From: Oscillospiraceae bacterium | Lineage (GTDB): Bacteria > Bacillota > Clostridia > Oscillospirales > Acutalibacteraceae | DNA: 33,150 bases | Assembly (NCBI GenBank): GCA_015066065.1 | Contig: SVPB01000014.1 | Span: 1-33,150, forward strand | Reading direction: 5' to 3' | Shown: piece by piece, positions 4,704 to 11,581 of the stretch | Layout: the number at the start of each line of letters is the position of its first letter | Position numbering within the stretch: the stretch's first letter is position 1 | Position numbers and translations under genes: made by a program | Notes under the pieces: model-generated | What the model was told of the DNA's origin: nothing | The model's database searches: none | The model's input: only the letters and a program-made list of their open reading frames with translations

Positions 4704-4732
4704 TTGCATATTTTGGAAGAATGGTATATACT
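4704..4732 (+). promoter_or_regulatory. Promoter of the gpsA-tagD/glf operon
   Basis: TTGCAT (4704-4709), a 17-bp spacer and TATACT (4727-4732), 29 bp before the start codon of the fusion gene, which has an AAAGGGG ribosome binding site. Confidence 0.75.
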
Positions 4733-4761
4733 AAAGATAATTAACAGAAAGGGGTGAGTGC

Positions 4762-6228
4762 ATGAGCCGTATCGGTATACTGGGCGCCGGCACCTTTGGT
4801 GTGGCGCTGGCACGGATGCTCTGCCGCAACGGTCACGACGTGACCCTGTGGTCGGCGGTTGCATCCGAGATCGAGCATCTGCGGCGTACACACGCCCACC
4901 CCCATCTCCCGGAGGCGGTCATCCCGGAGGCCATCCGGCTGACCACCGACGACGCCACCGTCTGTCAGGAGCAGGATATCCTGCTGTTTGCAGTATCCTC
5001 CCCCTACGTGCGGTCAACGGCGGCGCGGATGCGCCCCCACATCCCTGACGGCCAGATCATCGTGGACGTGGCCAAGGGCATGGAAGCGGACACCCTCCTG
5101 ACCATGTCCCAGGTGATCAGCAAGGAGATCCGGCAGGACGGCCGGCACCCTCACCTGCATCTGGTGGCGCTGTCCGGCCCCACCCATGCTGAGGAGGTGG
5201 CCCGGGACCTTCCCACCACCATTGTGTCCGCCTGCGACGACCTTACGGTGGCCCAGCAGGTGCAGGAGATATTCTCCAACACCTGTATGCGTGTATACAC
5301 CAACGAGGATATGCACGGGGTGGAGCTGTGCGGTGCCATGAAGAACATCATTGCCTTAGCCGCCGGCATTTCCGCCGGGCTGGGGTACGGGGACAACGCC
5401 AAGGCGGCGCTGATCACCCGAGGCATGGCGGAGATCACCCGGCTGGGCACCGCCATGGGCTGTGCCGAATCCACCTTCCGGGGCCTGGCCGGTATCGGTG
5501 ACCTGATCGTCACCGCCACCAGTGTCCACAGCCGCAACAACCGTGCCGGTACGCTTATCGGGCAGGGCTACACCCCTGCCCAGGCCACCCAGGAGGTGGG
5601 GATGGTGGTGGAAGGCATCCACGCCCTCCCGGCCGCCATCAAGCTGGCCCAGCAGTACGGGGTGGATATGCCCCTGATCAGCGCCGTTGACCGGGTGGTC
5701 AACCAGGGTGCGGATCCGGCGGCCACCGTCCACCAGCTCATGAGCCGCCAGCGCACCTCCGAAAACGAACCGGCGCCGGCCGGTCTGCAGTACGAGCGCT
5801 CCTTACTGGACAGCAAGAAGGGCCACGGCATGAAGCGTGTCATCACCTACGGCTCCTTTGACCTGCTCCATTACGGGCACATCGACCTCCTGCGCCGTGC
5901 CAAGGCCATGGGCGATTATCTGGTGGTGGCCCTGTCCACCGATGCGTATCATCAGCAAAAGGAGGGGCGCCCCTCCCACATCCCCTATGCGCAACGCAAA
6001 GCCCTGCTGGAAAGCATCCGGTACGTGGACCTGGTCATCCCGGAACAGGGAGAGGACCAAAAGCCCCAGGACTTCCGGGAACACCGTATCCACGCCCTTG
6101 TCATGGGAGACGACCGGACAGGGCAATTTGACCACCTACAGCAGTACGGGGTAGAGGTAGTGTACCTGCCCCCTGCCCCTGCGATCGCCACCACCCCAGT
6201 CAAAAACAATCAGAACAGCGAGGGATAA
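4762..6228 (+). CDS. GpsA-TagD fusion: glycerol-3-phosphate dehydrogenase plus cytidylyltransferase
   Basis: This 488-residue protein joins two enzymes usually made separately. Residues 1 to about 330 are NAD(P)+-dependent glycerol-3-phosphate dehydrogenase: the Rossmann motif GILGAGTFG, then VDVAKGME, SGPTHAEEV, the catalytic region ELCGAMKNIIALAAG and FRGLAGIGDL. After a polar linker (about 331-356), residues 357-488 match glycerol-3-phosphate cytidylyltransferase, with RVITYGSFDLLHYGH (the HxGH nucleotidyltransferase signature), RYVDLVIPE, VMGDD and IATTPVK. Together they would take dihydroxyacetone phosphate to CDP-glycerol, the precursor of teichoic-acid-like polymers. The reading frame is continuous. 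Codon 357 is an ATG with AGAAGGG upstream, so a separate TagD-only product by internal initiation is possible. glf follows after 3 bases. Confidence 0.9.
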   Translation: MSRIGILGAGTFGVALARMLCRNGHDVTLWSAVASEIEHLRRTHAHPHLPEAVIPEAIRLTTDDATVCQEQDILLFAVSSPYVRSTAARMRPHIPDGQIIVDVAKGMEADTLLTMSQVISKEIRQDGRHPHLHLVALSGPTHAEEVARDLPTTIVSACDDLTVAQQVQEIFSNTCMRVYTNEDMHGVELCGAMKNIIALAAGISAGLGYGDNAKAALITRGMAEITRLGTAMGCAESTFRGLAGIGDLIVTATSVHSRNNRAGTLIGQGYTPAQATQEVGMVVEGIHALPAAIKLAQQYGVDMPLISAVDRVVNQGADPAATVHQLMSRQRTSENEPAPAGLQYERSLLDSKKGHGMKRVITYGSFDLLHYGHIDLLRRAKAMGDYLVVALSTDAYHQQKEGRPSHIPYAQRKALLESIRYVDLVIPEQGEDQKPQDFREHRIHALVMGDDRTGQFDHLQQYGVEVVYLPPAPAIATTPVKNNQNSEG

Positions 6229-6231
6229 GCT

Positions 6232-7347
6232 ATGAAGTACGATTATCTAGTGGTCGGTGCCGGCCTGTATGGCGCCGTCTTTGCCCATGAAGCCAAGAAA
6301 GCCGGCAAGCAGGTGCTGGTCATTGACAAGCGCCCCCATGTGGCCGGCAACGTGTACACCGAGCCGGTGGAGGGCATTCAGGTGCACCGGTACGGCGCCC
6401 ACATCTTCCACACCAACCTCAAGCGTGTGTGGGACTACGTGGGGCAGTTTGCCACCTTCAACCGGTTCACCAACGCCCCGGTGGCCAACTACCACGGGGA
6501 GCTGTTCTCCCTGCCCTTTAATATGTATACCTTTAATAAGATGTGGGGGGTGGTGACCCCGGAGGAGGCCGCCGCCAAGATCGAGGAGCAGCGCCAGGCC
6601 GCCGGTATCACCGATCCGCAGAACTTAGAGGAGCAGGCCATCTCGCTGGTGGGCACCGACATCTACGAGAAGCTCATCAAGGGCTACACCGAGAAGCAGT
6701 GGGGCCGCCCCTGCACCGAGCTGCCCCCCTTCATCATCAAGCGGCTGCCGGTGCGGCTGACCTTTGATAACAACTACTTTAACGCCCTGTACCAAGGCAT
6801 CCCGGTGGGTGGCTACACCCGGATGGTGGAAAACATGCTGGAGGGCATCGAGGTGCGGCTGAACACCGACTATCTGGCCGACAAGGAGGCGCTGGATGCG
6901 CTGGCGGATAAGGTGGTATACACCGGCCCCATCGATGCGTACTTTAACTTCGCTCTGGGCACCTTGGAGTACCGTTCGGTGCGGTTTGAAAACGAGACGC
7001 TGGATATCCCCAACTACCAGGGCAACGCCGCCGTCAACTACACCGACCGGGAGAGCCCCTACACCCGCATTATCGAGCACAAGTGGTTCGAGTTCGGTAA
7101 GGATGCCGAGGGCAACGACCTGCCCAAGACGGTCATTTCCATGGAGTACAGCTCCGAGTGGAAGCCGGGTGACGAGCCCTATTACCCGGTCAACGACGAG
7201 AAGAACGGGGCGCTGTACCATCGGTACAAGGAGCTGGCCGACCGGGAAGAAAAGGTCATCTTCGGCGGCCGCTTAGGCGAGTACAAGTACTACGACATGG
7301 ATGCGGTCATCGCCTCCGCCCTGTCCCTGTGTGACCGGGAGCTGTAA
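6232..7347 (+). CDS. glf: UDP-galactopyranose mutase
   Basis: This 371-residue flavoprotein has the family's usual length. It interconverts UDP-galactopyranose and UDP-galactofuranose, supplying galactofuranose for cell-surface glycans. The N-terminal FAD motif VVGAGLYGAVFAHEA is followed by VIDKRPHVAGNVYTE and YGAHIFHTN, all typical of Glf. The central region has YTEKQWGRP and the C-terminus has GGRLGEYKYYDMD, also conserved in the family. It starts 3 bases after the GpsA-TagD stop, with the ribosome binding site inside the end of that gene, so translation is probably coupled. The pairing suggests a polymer combining glycerol phosphate and galactofuranose; no glycosyltransferase for it is in the window. 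Confidence 0.92.
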   Translation: MKYDYLVVGAGLYGAVFAHEAKKAGKQVLVIDKRPHVAGNVYTEPVEGIQVHRYGAHIFHTNLKRVWDYVGQFATFNRFTNAPVANYHGELFSLPFNMYTFNKMWGVVTPEEAAAKIEEQRQAAGITDPQNLEEQAISLVGTDIYEKLIKGYTEKQWGRPCTELPPFIIKRLPVRLTFDNNYFNALYQGIPVGGYTRMVENMLEGIEVRLNTDYLADKEALDALADKVVYTGPIDAYFNFALGTLEYRSVRFENETLDIPNYQGNAAVNYTDRESPYTRIIEHKWFEFGKDAEGNDLPKTVISMEYSSEWKPGDEPYYPVNDEKNGALYHRYKELADREEKVIFGGRLGEYKYYDMDAVIASALSLCDREL

Positions 7348-7356
7348 GAGAATCAT

Positions 7357-7395
7357 AAAAAAGAGGACGAAGCGTGCGCTTCGTCCTCTTTTGTT
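7357..7395. terminator. Bidirectional terminator, copy 1 of a duplicated sequence
   Basis: A perfect hairpin (GAGGACGAAGCG / CGCTTCGTCCTC) with A and T runs on both sides sits between the convergent genes glf and the XRE repressor. The same 39 bases recur exactly at 8226-8264, and both are followed by ATTCTTCC (here after one extra T), which forms the end of the minus-strand gene in each case. Confidence 0.9.
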
Positions 7396-7634
7396 TATTC
7401 TTCCCCATCCAGCAAAGCATCGTAAGTGGTTTCCAACACATCCCGGATAGCACGAAGCTGACTGGCTTGTACGTGCTGGGTACACCGTTCGATCTTGACC
7501 AGACATTCCCGGGTCATATCACAGCCACCGATCTGCAGCAGCCGCACCAGATCGGTCTGTCCCAACCCTTTCTGCCGTCGTATCCGACGAATATTGTCAC
7601 CGATCCGCACGTCCTGCTTCACCTTTTGTTCCAT
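7395..7634 (-). CDS. XRE-family HTH repressor
   Basis: This 79-residue protein consists of little more than one helix-turn-helix domain of the Cro/cI type. IGDNIRRIRRQKGLGQTDLVRLLQ opens the domain and MTRECLVKIERCTQHVQASQLRAIRDVL covers the recognition and supporting helices. It is divergent from the SLOG gene at 7738. Two matching GGAC-N8-GTCC dyads (7651-7666 and 7704-7719) lie between them, one just upstream of this gene's own ribosome binding region (GGGGGCG) and one over the start site of the SLOG promoter. This is the usual layout of a self-regulating repressor controlling its neighbour. The end of the gene overlaps the duplicated terminator. Confidence 0.85.
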   Translation of the reverse strand: MEQKVKQDVRIGDNIRRIRRQKGLGQTDLVRLLQIGGCDMTRECLVKIERCTQHVQASQLRAIRDVLETTYDALLDGEE

Positions 7635-7650
7635 TTTATCGCCCCCATAT

Positions 7651-7666
7651 GGACCAAAATTAGTCC
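7651..7666. promoter_or_regulatory. Operator dyad 1 (XRE/SLOG intergenic)
   Basis: GGAC-N8-GTCC, 17 bases upstream of the XRE start codon. It shares the dyad arms and a TAGTCC half-site with operator 2; the two centres are 53 bp apart, about five helical turns. Confidence 0.65.
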
Positions 7667-7673
7667 TTATGGG

Positions 7674-7702
7674 TTTATTTTATGTCTTTTTTATGATATA
7701 AT
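7674..7702 (+). promoter_or_regulatory. Promoter of the SLOG gene
   Basis: A perfect TATAAT (7697-7702) ends one base before operator 2. The -35 region at the 17-bp distance (TTTATT) is weak. AGGAGAGG precedes the ATG at 7738. Confidence 0.6.
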
Positions 7703-7703
7703 G

Positions 7704-7719
7704 GGACTCATACTAGTCC
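7704..7719. promoter_or_regulatory. Operator dyad 2 (over the SLOG start site)
   Basis: GGAC-N8-GTCC directly after the -10 box, where a bound repressor would block transcription initiation. It pairs with operator 1 on the same helical face. Confidence 0.65.
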
Positions 7720-7737
7720 ACTTTAGGAGAGGATACT

Positions 7738-8178
7738 ATGTTTACCTGTTTTTGTTGCGGTCACCGTGACACACCCGAAGCAATCTACCCACTGCTTTTC
7801 AAAGCTGTTTGTACACTGATGGAGCAACACAAGGTCATCGACTTTCTGGTAGGCCACCGGGGAAATTTTGATCAGTTAGCCGCCAGAGCCGTTAAGGAGG
7901 CAAAAAAGAGGTATCCGCAGGCACGTCTTACCCTGCTCCTCAGCCATCTGCCGCCAACGCCTCTGTCACCCGGCTTTGACGACTCCCTTTATCCCGAGGG
8001 GCTGGAAACCGTACCAAAACGGCTGGCTATCTGTCGGGCCAATCAATTAGCCGTTGTCACCAGTGATTGCTTGTTGTGCTACATATGTCACAGCCCCTCC
8101 AACACGGGAAAGCTGTTGCCCTATGCGCAGGGACGAGGGATACCCGTTTATAATCTGGCTCATGAGGAAGGTCTGTAA
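7738..8178 (+). CDS. SLOG-family (DprA/YpsA-like Rossmann) protein
   Basis: This 146-residue protein resembles the SLOG superfamily of nucleotide- or ligand-binding Rossmann folds. It opens with FTCFCCGHRDTPEAIYPLL, the typical 'GHR' start of YpsA/DUF1273-like members, and carries a second motif FLVGHRGNFDQLAARAVKEA around residues 36-55. The C-terminal part has a long sheet-helix region ending in an NTGKLLPYA segment. There is no catalytic motif I can assign. SLOG proteins have been proposed to bind nucleotide-derived signals and occur in phage-conflict settings; a role here is inference. It is divergently paired with an XRE repressor through two operators, so expression is probably kept off until a signal releases the repressor. 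Confidence 0.75.
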   Translation: MFTCFCCGHRDTPEAIYPLLFKAVCTLMEQHKVIDFLVGHRGNFDQLAARAVKEAKKRYPQARLTLLLSHLPPTPLSPGFDDSLYPEGLETVPKRLAICRANQLAVVTSDCLLCYICHSPSNTGKLLPYAQGRGIPVYNLAHEEGL

Positions 8179-8225
8179 GAGCGTTTCCATCGGTAGCGAA
8201 AAACACAGACTGGTTTGAGGGAAGT

Positions 8226-8264
8226 AAAAAAGAGGACGAAGCGTGCGCTTCGTCCTCTTTTGTT
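8226..8264. terminator. Bidirectional terminator, copy 2 of a duplicated sequence
   Basis: This is identical over 39 bases to 7357-7395 and followed by the same ATTCTTCC. It lies between the convergent SLOG genes (7738-8178 plus, 8263-8649 minus) and is the likely 3' end of the long leftward operon. Confidence 0.9.
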
Positions 8265-8649
8265 ATTCTTCCGGCAAACAGGCGGTCTGTTCCTCTTGCT
8301 CCTCCGCCGGCGGCTGGGGGTTAAACCGGTAGGCACGCAGGGGCTTGCCCACCGCCTGGCACCGGTCGATGACATACTTGGTGCCCCGGGAGATGCCGTC
8401 CCACAGAGCGATGACCAGGTCGGCGTAGTCGATGATCTGGTCGTTGCGGCGGATGGGTGCCGCCCGGCCGTACCGGTCGTATTCCGGCAGGAACTCGGTG
8501 TATAAAAGGCCACTTTCCTCCGCAAACTTCCGGGCGCAGGTATCCACGCCCAGAGCGCCGCCGGATACGATCTCGGTGGTCTCCTCCGGGACAAAAGCGT
8601 CTATGTCGGTGATCTTCAGGGTTCGGGAACCAATGATGGCTACTTTCAT
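8263..8649 (-). CDS. SLOG-family protein, last gene of the long operon
   Basis: This 128-residue Rossmann-like protein belongs to a different SLOG branch from its neighbour. MKVAIIGSRTL (residues 1-11) is the nucleotide-binding loop, SGGALGVD (29-36) the second conserved loop, and ADLVIALWDGISRGTKYVID (about 77-96) the third. This GSR / GGAxGxD / WDGxSxGT set is typical of YspA/DUF2493-like SLOG proteins. The track start at 8652 is a GTG; the ATG at 8649 overlaps the TGA of the upstream Clp gene and follows AAGGAGG, so I prefer it. The acidic tail (EEQEEQTACLPEE) is unremarkable. Co-transcription with a Clp-type unfoldase makes a stress-related role possible. Confidence 0.8.
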   Translation of the reverse strand: MKVAIIGSRTLKITDIDAFVPEETTEIVSGGALGVDTCARKFAEESGLLYTEFLPEYDRYGRAAPIRRNDQIIDYADLVIALWDGISRGTKYVIDRCQAVGKPLRAYRFNPQPPAEEQEEQTACLPEE

Positions 8650-10940
8650 CACAAGTCCTCCTTCAGCACGATCTTACCGGTCTCATCCACCCGGAGAGAC
8701 ACGGCAGTAAGCGGATCGTCGTGGCGACGAACAATGGCTTCTGCCACGGGGTTTTCCACCTGACGGCGGATGGCGTTGCGCAGGTCACGGGCCCCTCGCT
8801 TGCCGCCATGGGACTGCTCAGCCAGCACCCGGGGCACCGCCTCCTCCCACGTGAGGGTGATCCCCCGTTCCTTCAGAGGCTCGACCAGCTCGGTTAACAT
8901 GAGCACCGCAATCGAGGCGTAGGTGTCCACGCTCAGGGGCTGGAAGAACACCACCTCGTCCACACGGCCGATAAACTCGGGGCGCAAAAAGTCGCTGAGC
9001 GCCTTGACCGCCCGTTCCCGGGCGGCTTCACCGGCGGTCTGGCCGAAGCCCATAAGGCTGTCCCGGCGCTCGCTGCCGGCGTTGGAGGTCATCACGATCA
9101 CGGTGTTCTCAAAGTTGACGGTGCGGCCGTGGGCGTCGGTGACCCGGCCTTCGTCCAGGATCTGCAGCAGGATGTTGAGCACGTCCGGGTGCGCCTTTTC
9201 GATCTCGTCAAACAGAATGACCGAGTAGGGCTTGCGCCGCACCTTTTCGGTGAGCTGGCCGGCCTCGTCGTACCCCACGTAGCCGGGGGGCGAGCCGATG
9301 AGCCGGGAAACGGCGTGCTTCTCCATAAACTCCGACATATCCAGCCGGATCAGGGTCTCGGGGGTGTCAAACAGCTGGGCGGCCAGCACCTTGACCAGCT
9401 CGGTCTTGCCCACACCGGTAGAACCCACAAAGATGAAAGAGGCTGGACGGCGGCGAGGGCTTATCTGCACCCGACTGCGGCGGATGGCGGCGGCCACCGC
9501 CTGTACCGCTTCCTCCTGCCCGATGACCCGGGCACGCAGGTGCTCCTCCAACTGTGCCAGCTTGCCCAGCTCACTCTCCTGCACCTTGGAGGCCGGGATG
9601 CCGGTCCACAGCTCGATGACCTTGGCCAAAGCCTCCTCGGTGACCGGGGCGGCGGTGGCTTCCTCCTTGATGGACGCCAGCTGCTCCTCCACCTGCATGA
9701 GCTGTGCCCGGGTGTTGGCCAGGGCTTCATAATCCTTCTCCTCGGCGGCCATCACAGACTCCTCCTGCTCCTGCAGGGTGGCCTGCTGGCGCAGCAGCGC
9801 CGCATAGGTGTCCGCCGCCTTGTTGGCCAATGCCGTGGCGGCACAGGCCTCGTCCAGCAGGTCGATGGCCTTATCCGGCAGATACCGGTCGGTGATATAG
9901 CGCTCGGACAGCGCCACCGCCCGGCGCAGCACCGTGTCGGTGACCCGGACGCCGTGGTAGCCCTCATAGTATTCCCGTACCCCTTGCAGGATGGCAAAGG
10001 CGTCCTCCACCGAGGGCTCCTCCACCGTCACCGGCTGGAACCGGCGCTCCAAGGCGGCATCCTTCTCAATGTGCTTGCGGTATTCGTTAAAGGTGGTGGC
10101 ACCGATGACCTGCACCTCGCCCCGGGACAAGGCCGGCTTGAGAATGTTGGCGGCGGAGAGGCTTCCCTCCGCATCCCCGGTACCCACCAAGGTGTGCACC
10201 TCGTCAATAAACAGGATAATGTTGCCGGCCGCCTTGACCTCCTGGATCAGCCCCTTGATGCGGCTCTCAAACTGGCCGCGGAACTGGGTGCCAGCCACCA
10301 AAGCGGTCATATCCAGCAGTAACAGCTCCTTGCCCTGCAAACGGGGCGGCACCTCGCCGGCGGCCATGCGCAGCGCCAGACCTTCCGCAATGGCGGTCTT
10401 GCCCACACCGGGTTCACCAATGAGGCAGGGGTTATTCTTGGTGCGGCGGGAGAGAATCTGGGTGACCCGGTAGATCTCCCGTTCCCGGCCTACGGTACGG
10501 TCGATCTTACCCTCTCTGGCCCGGGCGGTCAGATCGGTGCAATACTGGGAGATGTGCTTGCGGCTCGGCTCCTTGGGGGCACGCTTTTTCTTATCCGCAG
10601 GGGCGTCATCCACCGGTTCCCCCTCCAAGGGAGGCTCCTTTGCCGGCTGGGGGCCGTTGCCAAACAAGCTCTGCAGGAAGGGGAACACCGGCGCACCGCC
10701 GGGGGTGAAATCCTCCTCGCCCTCCTCCCCGGAAACGGCCATCATCTCCTCCATCTGCTGGTTCATCTGCTCCATATCCTCGTCGCTGATGCCAAACTTC
10801 TCCAGCATATCGTTGACCGGCTTGATGCCCAGCTCCTTGGCGCAGGACAGACAGTAGCCCTCGTTGGCGCTTTCGCCGCCCTCTACCCGGGTGACAAACA
10901 CCACGGCCGGTCGTTTTTTACATCGGGTGCAAATGATCAT
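8649..10940 (-). CDS. ClpE-like AAA+ unfoldase with N-terminal zinc finger
   Basis: This 763-residue double-ATPase of the Clp/Hsp100 class has two Walker A motifs, GEPGVGKT (175-182) and GSTGVGKT (506-513), with matching Walker B motifs (LFIDEVHT, ILFDEIEKA). The N-terminus is a small treble-clef-like zinc finger with cysteines 4, 7, 30 and 33. The usual double Clp-N repeat is missing; residues 50-150 are an acidic, low-complexity linker. This combination matches ClpE rather than ClpB or ClpC. A short coiled middle region lies at about 380-430. In the second ATPase domain, LMGFG is a plausible ClpP-docking loop, so it may feed ClpP. The ATG overlaps the pgsA-like stop (ATGA). Confidence 0.85.
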   Translation of the reverse strand: MIICTRCKKRPAVVFVTRVEGGESANEGYCLSCAKELGIKPVNDMLEKFGISDEDMEQMNQQMEEMMAVSGEEGEEDFTPGGAPVFPFLQSLFGNGPQPAKEPPLEGEPVDDAPADKKKRAPKEPSRKHISQYCTDLTARAREGKIDRTVGREREIYRVTQILSRRTKNNPCLIGEPGVGKTAIAEGLALRMAAGEVPPRLQGKELLLLDMTALVAGTQFRGQFESRIKGLIQEVKAAGNIILFIDEVHTLVGTGDAEGSLSAANILKPALSRGEVQVIGATTFNEYRKHIEKDAALERRFQPVTVEEPSVEDAFAILQGVREYYEGYHGVRVTDTVLRRAVALSERYITDRYLPDKAIDLLDEACAATALANKAADTYAALLRQQATLQEQEESVMAAEEKDYEALANTRAQLMQVEEQLASIKEEATAAPVTEEALAKVIELWTGIPASKVQESELGKLAQLEEHLRARVIGQEEAVQAVAAAIRRSRVQISPRRRPASFIFVGSTGVGKTELVKVLAAQLFDTPETLIRLDMSEFMEKHAVSRLIGSPPGYVGYDEAGQLTEKVRRKPYSVILFDEIEKAHPDVLNILLQILDEGRVTDAHGRTVNFENTVIVMTSNAGSERRDSLMGFGQTAGEAARERAVKALSDFLRPEFIGRVDEVVFFQPLSVDTYASIAVLMLTELVEPLKERGITLTWEEAVPRVLAEQSHGGKRGARDLRNAIRRQVENPVAEAIVRRHDDPLTAVSLRVDETGKIVLKEDL

Positions 10941-11548
10941 ATGGTTTCACCTTTCTCGTCAACGGGGGATTCCTGACCGTAGCGGTCCGGCCGCCACAGG
11001 CGCAGGAAGATACGCAGATAGCCTATGAACGCAAACACCGTCAGGCCAATGACCACCGCAATCAAAGCGGTAGGCAGCCACGGCGCATGGACCGCCATCC
11101 AGTCGTGCCACAGCACCAGGCTGGCCATAATGGTGTAAAAGGCGATGGTGTAGAGCTTGCCAAACCACTTGGCGCCACGCACCTCGTTGCGGTGGCGCAG
11201 CAGCAATAAGCCGCCGATGGCCTGACACAGCTCCTTGGCAAAGCACAGCACCGCCACCGGAATGATGACCCGGTACCGGGTGGACAGACAGATGACCACC
11301 ATCACCTGCGTCAGCTTATCCGCCACCGGATCAAGGAGCTTGCCCATCTCGGTGATCTGGTTAAAGTGCCGGGCAATAAACCCGTCCAGACAATCGGTCA
11401 AGCCGGACAGCGCCAGCACGCCGAAGGCCCAGTAATCCCATCGCTCCCCCTGCAGATACAGCACCGCAAACAGCGGCACCAATCCCAGACGTACCAGGGA
11501 CAGGATGTTGGGTATGCTCCACTTCCACGGAATATTAAACAACTGCAT
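10937..11548 (-). CDS. pgsA: CDP-alcohol phosphatidyltransferase, PgsA-like
   Basis: This is an integral membrane enzyme of about 203 residues with five to six predicted helices. It carries the complete CDP-alcohol phosphotransferase signature, D55-G56-x2-A59-R60-x8-G69-x3-D73-x3-D77. Enzymes of this type transfer a phosphatidyl group from CDP-diacylglycerol to an alcohol; phosphatidylglycerophosphate synthase is the likeliest role, but a cardiolipin-synthase-like function cannot be excluded. The track start at 11557 is a GTG without a spaced ribosome binding site; the ATG at 11548 has AAGAAGG 8 bases upstream and is preferred. It overlaps the Clp gene by four bases. Confidence 0.8.
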   Translation of the reverse strand: MQLFNIPWKWSIPNILSLVRLGLVPLFAVLYLQGERWDYWAFGVLALSGLTDCLDGFIARHFNQITEMGKLLDPVADKLTQVMVVICLSTRYRVIIPVAVLCFAKELCQAIGGLLLLRHRNEVRGAKWFGKLYTIAFYTIMASLVLWHDWMAVHAPWLPTALIAVVIGLTVFAFIGYLRIFLRLWRPDRYGQESPVDEKGETI

Positions 11549-11581
11549 TGAAAACACCTTCTTTAAACGTTGCAGGCTTTT

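Follow-up and report, generated by a model that had tools for sequence, protein, structure and literature searches.

HldE (RfaE) is a kinase fused to an HxGH nucleotidyltransferase, and makes an NDP-activated precursor. Strictly as an analogy, the fused gene described here likewise joins a sugar-phosphate-forming enzyme to a nucleotidyltransferase in one chain, and the HldE-type profile NF008454 matches its TagD part weakly, but HldE differs from GpsA-TagD in both its first enzyme and its product. The first half of the fusion resembles the GpsA glycerol-3-phosphate dehydrogenases (NF000942; PDB 1z82, 3k96) in having a full-length domain that passes the family cut-offs and keeps the conserved residues, and is unlike them in carrying a C-terminal cytidylyltransferase. 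The second half shares the fold family, the HxGH motif and about 56% identity with TagD of Bacillus subtilis (PDB 1coz, 2b7l), but lacks the RTxxIST motif, K44, K46, W74 and W95, and falls under the equivalog cut-off. PMC8262930, with reference to Park 1997 and Pattridge 2003, gives His14, His17 and Arg113 of B. subtilis TagD as experimentally essential, and Lys44 and Lys46 as contacting phosphates. No description of a GpsA-TagD fusion was found in the literature searched.

The window analysed is a stretch of 33,150 nt (contig SVPB01000014.1) from an Oscillospiraceae bacterium, the assembly of which (G000) is a 91-contig draft that is 90% complete. As originally predicted, one continuous frame joins GpsA to TagD, with all 488 codons open and both domains confirmed by profile match (Table 1). 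The GpsA half is complete and scores above the curated cut-offs for PF01210 (136.8 bits, cut-off 23.1; E 8e-40), PF07479 (179.7, cut-off 25; E 4e-53) and NF000942 (402.8, cut-off 257). It keeps K194, N195, D247, T251, R258 and N259, which are nearly invariant columns in an alignment with 16 relatives. The TagD half matches PF01467 (1e-18) and B. subtilis TagD (PDB 1coz, E 1e-38 over residues 357-482). In an AlphaFold2 model of the fusion the GpsA half has a pLDDT of mostly 90 or more; the TagD tail is of low confidence and the inter-domain arrangement uncertain, and this part of the model was unusable because the alignment is thin over the tail. An Rfam search of the window gave no match.

Table 1. 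Features of the fusion locus and of related loci. Positions are those of the window unless a genome or locus is given.
Feature	Location	Strand	Remarks
Promoter-like site 5' of the fusion	4713..4741	+	TTGGAA-17-GATAAT, 9/12 match to consensus; number of such matches in the region at chance level
GpsA-TagD fusion ORF	4762-6228	+	ATG start, 488 aa, no internal stop
GpsA (NAD(P)H-dependent glycerol-3-phosphate dehydrogenase) domain, residues 1-334	4762..5763	+	PF01210/PF07479/NF000942
22-residue linker	5764..5829	+	Shares E-x10-[YFH]-E with homologous linkers in four other fusions
Internal ATG (5830, codon 357) with weak SD-like AAGAAGGG	5815..5832	+	Chance level
TagD-type cytidylyltransferase domain, residues 357-488, eroded	5830..6225	+	TIGR01518 below cut-off, residue losses
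Changed TagD sites (fusion numbering)	365, 401, 403, 431, 452, 471, 472, 476		Same order as T9 to S118
glf, UDP-galactopyranose mutase	6232..7347	+	TIGR00031 417.8 bits (above cut-off), PF03275
Hairpin terminator 3' of glf	7359-7392		First copy of 34-nt hairpin AAAAGAGGACGAAGCGTGCGCTTCGTCCTCTTTT
Second 34-nt hairpin	8228-8261		Identical to the first
ClpB-like AAA protein, 763 aa	8649-10940	-	Shorter than ClpB, under all Clp equivalog cut-offs
CDP-alcohol phosphatidyltransferase	10937-11557	-	PF01066, PgsA-like
LicD-family transferase gene	G000:C80:5927-6595		PF04991
LicD polysaccharide locus	L125 (G000:C80:1-18000), 5840-10941	-	
Split point between gpsA and tagD of G008	L110, about 8985-9065		Linker region still adjacent, overall in frame
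GpsA with C-terminal TagD relic	L111:7978-9489	+	Relic in frame, without HxGH and RTxxIST part
GpsA with C-terminal TagD relic	L112:7793-9241	-	Relic in frame, without HxGH and RTxxIST part

The draft state of the assembly, and the presence of the two genes as separate ORFs in a member of the same genus (G008), could suggest that assembly or sequencing had artificially joined two genes. The same domain order was found in six other genomes, four of which also have a homologous linker, and since these independent genomes belong to different families an artefactual junction was rejected as exceedingly improbable. Intact fusions occur in G007 (same genus, 64%), in G708 and G941 (same class), and in Massilimicrobiota sp. 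An134 of the Erysipelotrichaceae (L018). Their TagD parts score 197.8-202 bits with TIGR01518 and keep all TagD residues. In two genomes of the same order, G471 and G510, the fusions are decayed (43.9 and 47.2 bits), the tails being without HxGH and the C-terminal part while the frame is still open, and they show a further stage of TagD decay. The number of fusions is a lower bound, as the search outside the genus covered a sample of about 1,500 genomes, with E limits set at 1e-100 to 1e-130. The genes with TagD relics at L111 and L112 are the only gpsA genes of their genomes.

In G008, gpsA and tagD are adjacent and split by two TAA codons. The GpsA of this strain is the sister of the fused GpsA of G007 (support 100/98 in the GpsA tree), and the split pair is likely to have arisen by fission of a fused gene. 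Searches for other intermediates or vehicles were negative: free gpsA genes of this clade are not followed by TagD remnants, the free tagD genes found in the order have no gpsA within about 1.5 kb, among 50,697 phages and 72,556 plasmids there was no record with 80% of the query covered at a single place, and the fusion was absent from a scan of viral contigs.

The linkers are 22 residues long in the window, G007 and L018, 21 in G708 and 27 in G941. All five share one gap-free invariant column, a Glu situated 11 residues past the last Glu of GpsA and preceded by Tyr, Phe or His. The motif E-x10-[YFH]-E, which was picked after being seen, arose in none of 200,000 shuffles, and any invariant column in 84 of them. 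Because this motif is common to the five fusions, the fused frame was probably inherited and not remade each time. Tests of a single origin gave p-AU values for GpsA of 0.11 (six members) and 0.027 (all eight), and of 0.03 for TagD (132 columns). A single origin is backed by the linker and not by the trees, which neither show nor firmly exclude it.

The TagD half of the window has diverged strongly. All main motifs of both domains had been thought visible; HxGH is indeed present (H370, H373), but RTxxIST, the motif that defines cytidylyltransferases, reads PAPAIAT (PAPAIATT versus RTxGISTT). Sites T9, K44, K46, W74, W95, R113, T114 and S118 (B. subtilis numbering) are invariant in an alignment of 30 intact TagDs, fused and free and including that of B. 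subtilis (one row ends after position 63), and all are altered in the window (T9S, K44E, K46R, W74E, W95R, R113P, T114A, S118A). All intact TagDs whose aligned sequence covers position 113 have Arg there. When the domain is aligned with those of the other fusions, which needs no gaps, E and R stand in place of the phosphate-binding pair Lys44/Lys46, with a Lys one position before. With TIGR01518 the domain scores 141.8 bits, against a cut-off of 165.4 and the values of the intact fusions given above.

These changes reflect an accelerated evolution of the TagD half. At sites that are otherwise invariant, the window has 19 private changes in TagD and 4 in GpsA, compared to 12 and 56 for five relatives (Fisher p 3e-8), and in the TagD tree the end branch of the window is 1.51 long compared to a median of 0.098. 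The TagD changes favour functional sites (8/19 vs 3/29, p 0.016), counted over a wider list of residues that we take from TagD structures to be functional. Hydrophobic positions are largely kept (41/46), as are the codon-position bias, D11, D38, R55, R63, D66, K77, D94 and the core. With an open frame, codon bias and hydrophobic core retained and functional sites lost, the TagD half looks like a translated, folding domain without a working CTP site. Since the residues that bind CTP and phosphate have been lost, it is probably non-catalytic and no longer forms CDP-glycerol.

The features that have been kept, namely the open frame, HxGH, codon-position bias and hydrophobic core, may also indicate that some activity is retained or changed. 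If the TagD half had switched substrate, it would remain a nucleotidyltransferase acting on another nucleotide or acceptor, and the clustering of changes at functional sites, beside an intact HxGH and the retained residues listed above, is in keeping with this. Against such a switch, the searches turned up no relative sharing its residue pattern, the standard residues are all kept in the best full-length TagD matches (about 60-63% identical), and two other lineages show plain decay that includes loss of HxGH; we consider it quite improbable. Preservation of fold positions together with loss of the active site would also suit a role as pseudoenzyme in stabilising, multimerising or regulating GpsA, which would be one form of the non-catalytic tail. 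The decayed tails of G471 and G510 point the same way, as they stay in frame though a stop codon would free GpsA. Purifying selection would have to be seen among close relatives, of which there are none (the genera of G471 and G510 comprise one genome each), and the tail is predicted with low confidence in the structural model, so that a pseudoenzyme role is conceivable but not the likely outcome. The fuller version, in which a domesticated domain with its fold kept and its CTP site lost would now control the cell's sole GpsA or stabilise it, and G471 and G510 may have arrived at this separately, is doubtful.

The internal ATG at the start of the TagD domain had been put forward as a possible source of free TagD. 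Both the ATG and the AGAAGGG upstream of it are present, but the pairing with the anti-SD sequence (-5.0 kcal/mol) is no better than chance, because pairing at least as strong is seen at 111 of 300 in-frame codons within the gene. The TagD ATG of the intact fusions is preceded by stronger SD-like sequences (-7.3 to -8.8 kcal/mol), a further difference from the window; the corresponding value in G471 and G510 is -1.1 kcal/mol. The linker is likely to include what was the leader of tagD when that gene stood alone, now translated. Intact relatives may make some free TagD, and in the window the internal start has likely faded along with the enzyme.

A profile search of the 90%-complete assembly detected no separate gpsA, the fusion being the only match to PF07479. 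The same holds in the genus for G007 and G008, each of which, like G000, has a single PF07479 protein of the fusion's clade. Seven other members, the majority of the genus, carry a different GpsA (45-48% identity to that of the window over the PF07479 domain) and none of the fusion clade. Given completeness values of 90, 85 and 78% for G000, G007 and G008, the chance that a native gpsA was missed in all three is about 0.003. A second gpsA, or a CDP-glycerol polymerase, could sit in the missing part of the G000 assembly, but very probably the cell has no GpsA besides the fusion, which must then feed phospholipids too. This undercuts the proposal that the fusion diverts glycerol-3-phosphate away from phospholipid synthesis; no separate supply for phospholipids was found. 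The PgsA-like phosphatidyltransferase encoded in the window is probably another user of glycerol-3-phosphate made by the fusion.

The surroundings of the gene bear on whether CDP-glycerol is still made. As predicted, glf starts 3 bases past the fusion stop, and the two genes are probably cotranscribed. Two identical 34-nt hairpins lie on either side of the region that separates glf from the ClpB-like gene; no such pair is expected by chance, and no further copy was found elsewhere in the loci examined. Among the other fusions with neighbours scanned, none lies beside glf. A search for CDP-glycerol polymerase (PF04464, glycerophosphotransferase) found none in the 90%-complete G000, and none in G007, G008 or G510. 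These two results speak against galactofuranose and glycerol phosphate entering one polymer, as had been proposed. Genes for CDP-glycerol:poly(glycerophosphate) glycerophosphotransferase adjoin the intact fusions of L018 and G941, the latter inside a Wzx/Wzy capsule-type locus, and PF04464 matches occur elsewhere in the genomes of G708 and (weakly) G471.

An alternative CDP-alcohol transferase is present. G000 has one copy of a LicD-family gene (PF04991), which keeps a DDD-containing motif. LicD is related to fukutin. The latter can use CDP-glycerol (PMC8587909). In this genus the LicD gene lies apart from the fusion, in a polysaccharide locus that also encodes a Wzx flippase, a DUF4422 protein and glycosyltransferases. 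An EpsG polymerase gene is found between DUF4422 and Wzx in G008 and is absent at that place in G000. The species of the genus that have tagD (G000, G002, G004, G007, G008) all have LicD, and G003 has LicD with no tagD detected. Since a LicD-family transferase could use a CDP-alcohol, decoration with glycerol phosphate is possible in G007 and G008, and less so in G000.

An enzyme still active in both halves, which makes glycerol-3-phosphate, hands it over and turns it into CDP-glycerol destined for a galactofuranose-containing surface polymer, would account for the domain order, the polymerase genes beside intact relatives, the proximity of glf, and the LicD gene in its Wzx/glycosyltransferase locus. 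It is difficult to reconcile with the substitutions in the TagD half (R113P, T114A, S118A, K44E, K46R, W74E and W95R), with the fusion as sole GpsA, and with the results for PF04464 and glf described above, and must be regarded as unlikely. Channelling into a polymer would fit the relatives and not G000.

The explanation we consider probable is that a once bifunctional GpsA-TagD, now scattered over Clostridia and Erysipelotrichia, was probably spread by horizontal transfer and took the place of the GpsA native to the genus. The GpsA half of the fusion would convert dihydroxyacetone phosphate to sn-glycerol-3-phosphate as the only such activity of the cell, feeding phospholipid synthesis. The TagD half, which formerly would have turned sn-glycerol-3-phosphate into CDP-glycerol, would now be a non-catalytic tail, either a vestige or a pseudoenzyme. 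The original prediction was thus right in recognising a real fusion of two consecutive enzymes of CDP-glycerol synthesis, with intact relatives beside polymerase genes, and fails in G000 at the eroded TagD active site.

Annotated by profiles, this protein would pass for a bifunctional enzyme of CDP-glycerol synthesis, and a teichoic-acid-like polymer would be predicted, whereas the evidence at the level of residues indicates that the second activity is probably gone. Judged from sequence, the bifunctional family appears to be real, and in G000 the fusion most likely serves as a housekeeping GpsA whose TagD tail is dead or re-used. The series of intact fusion, split pair, eroded fusion and decayed tails would represent a metabolic fusion that was gained, split, and is losing one of its activities, with what is apparently the sole GpsA of the cell keeping the frame open while the other activity is lost. 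If the intact relatives channel glycerol-3-phosphate into CDP-glycerol, they would offer a clean test of channelling between the supply of membrane lipids and that of the cell wall.
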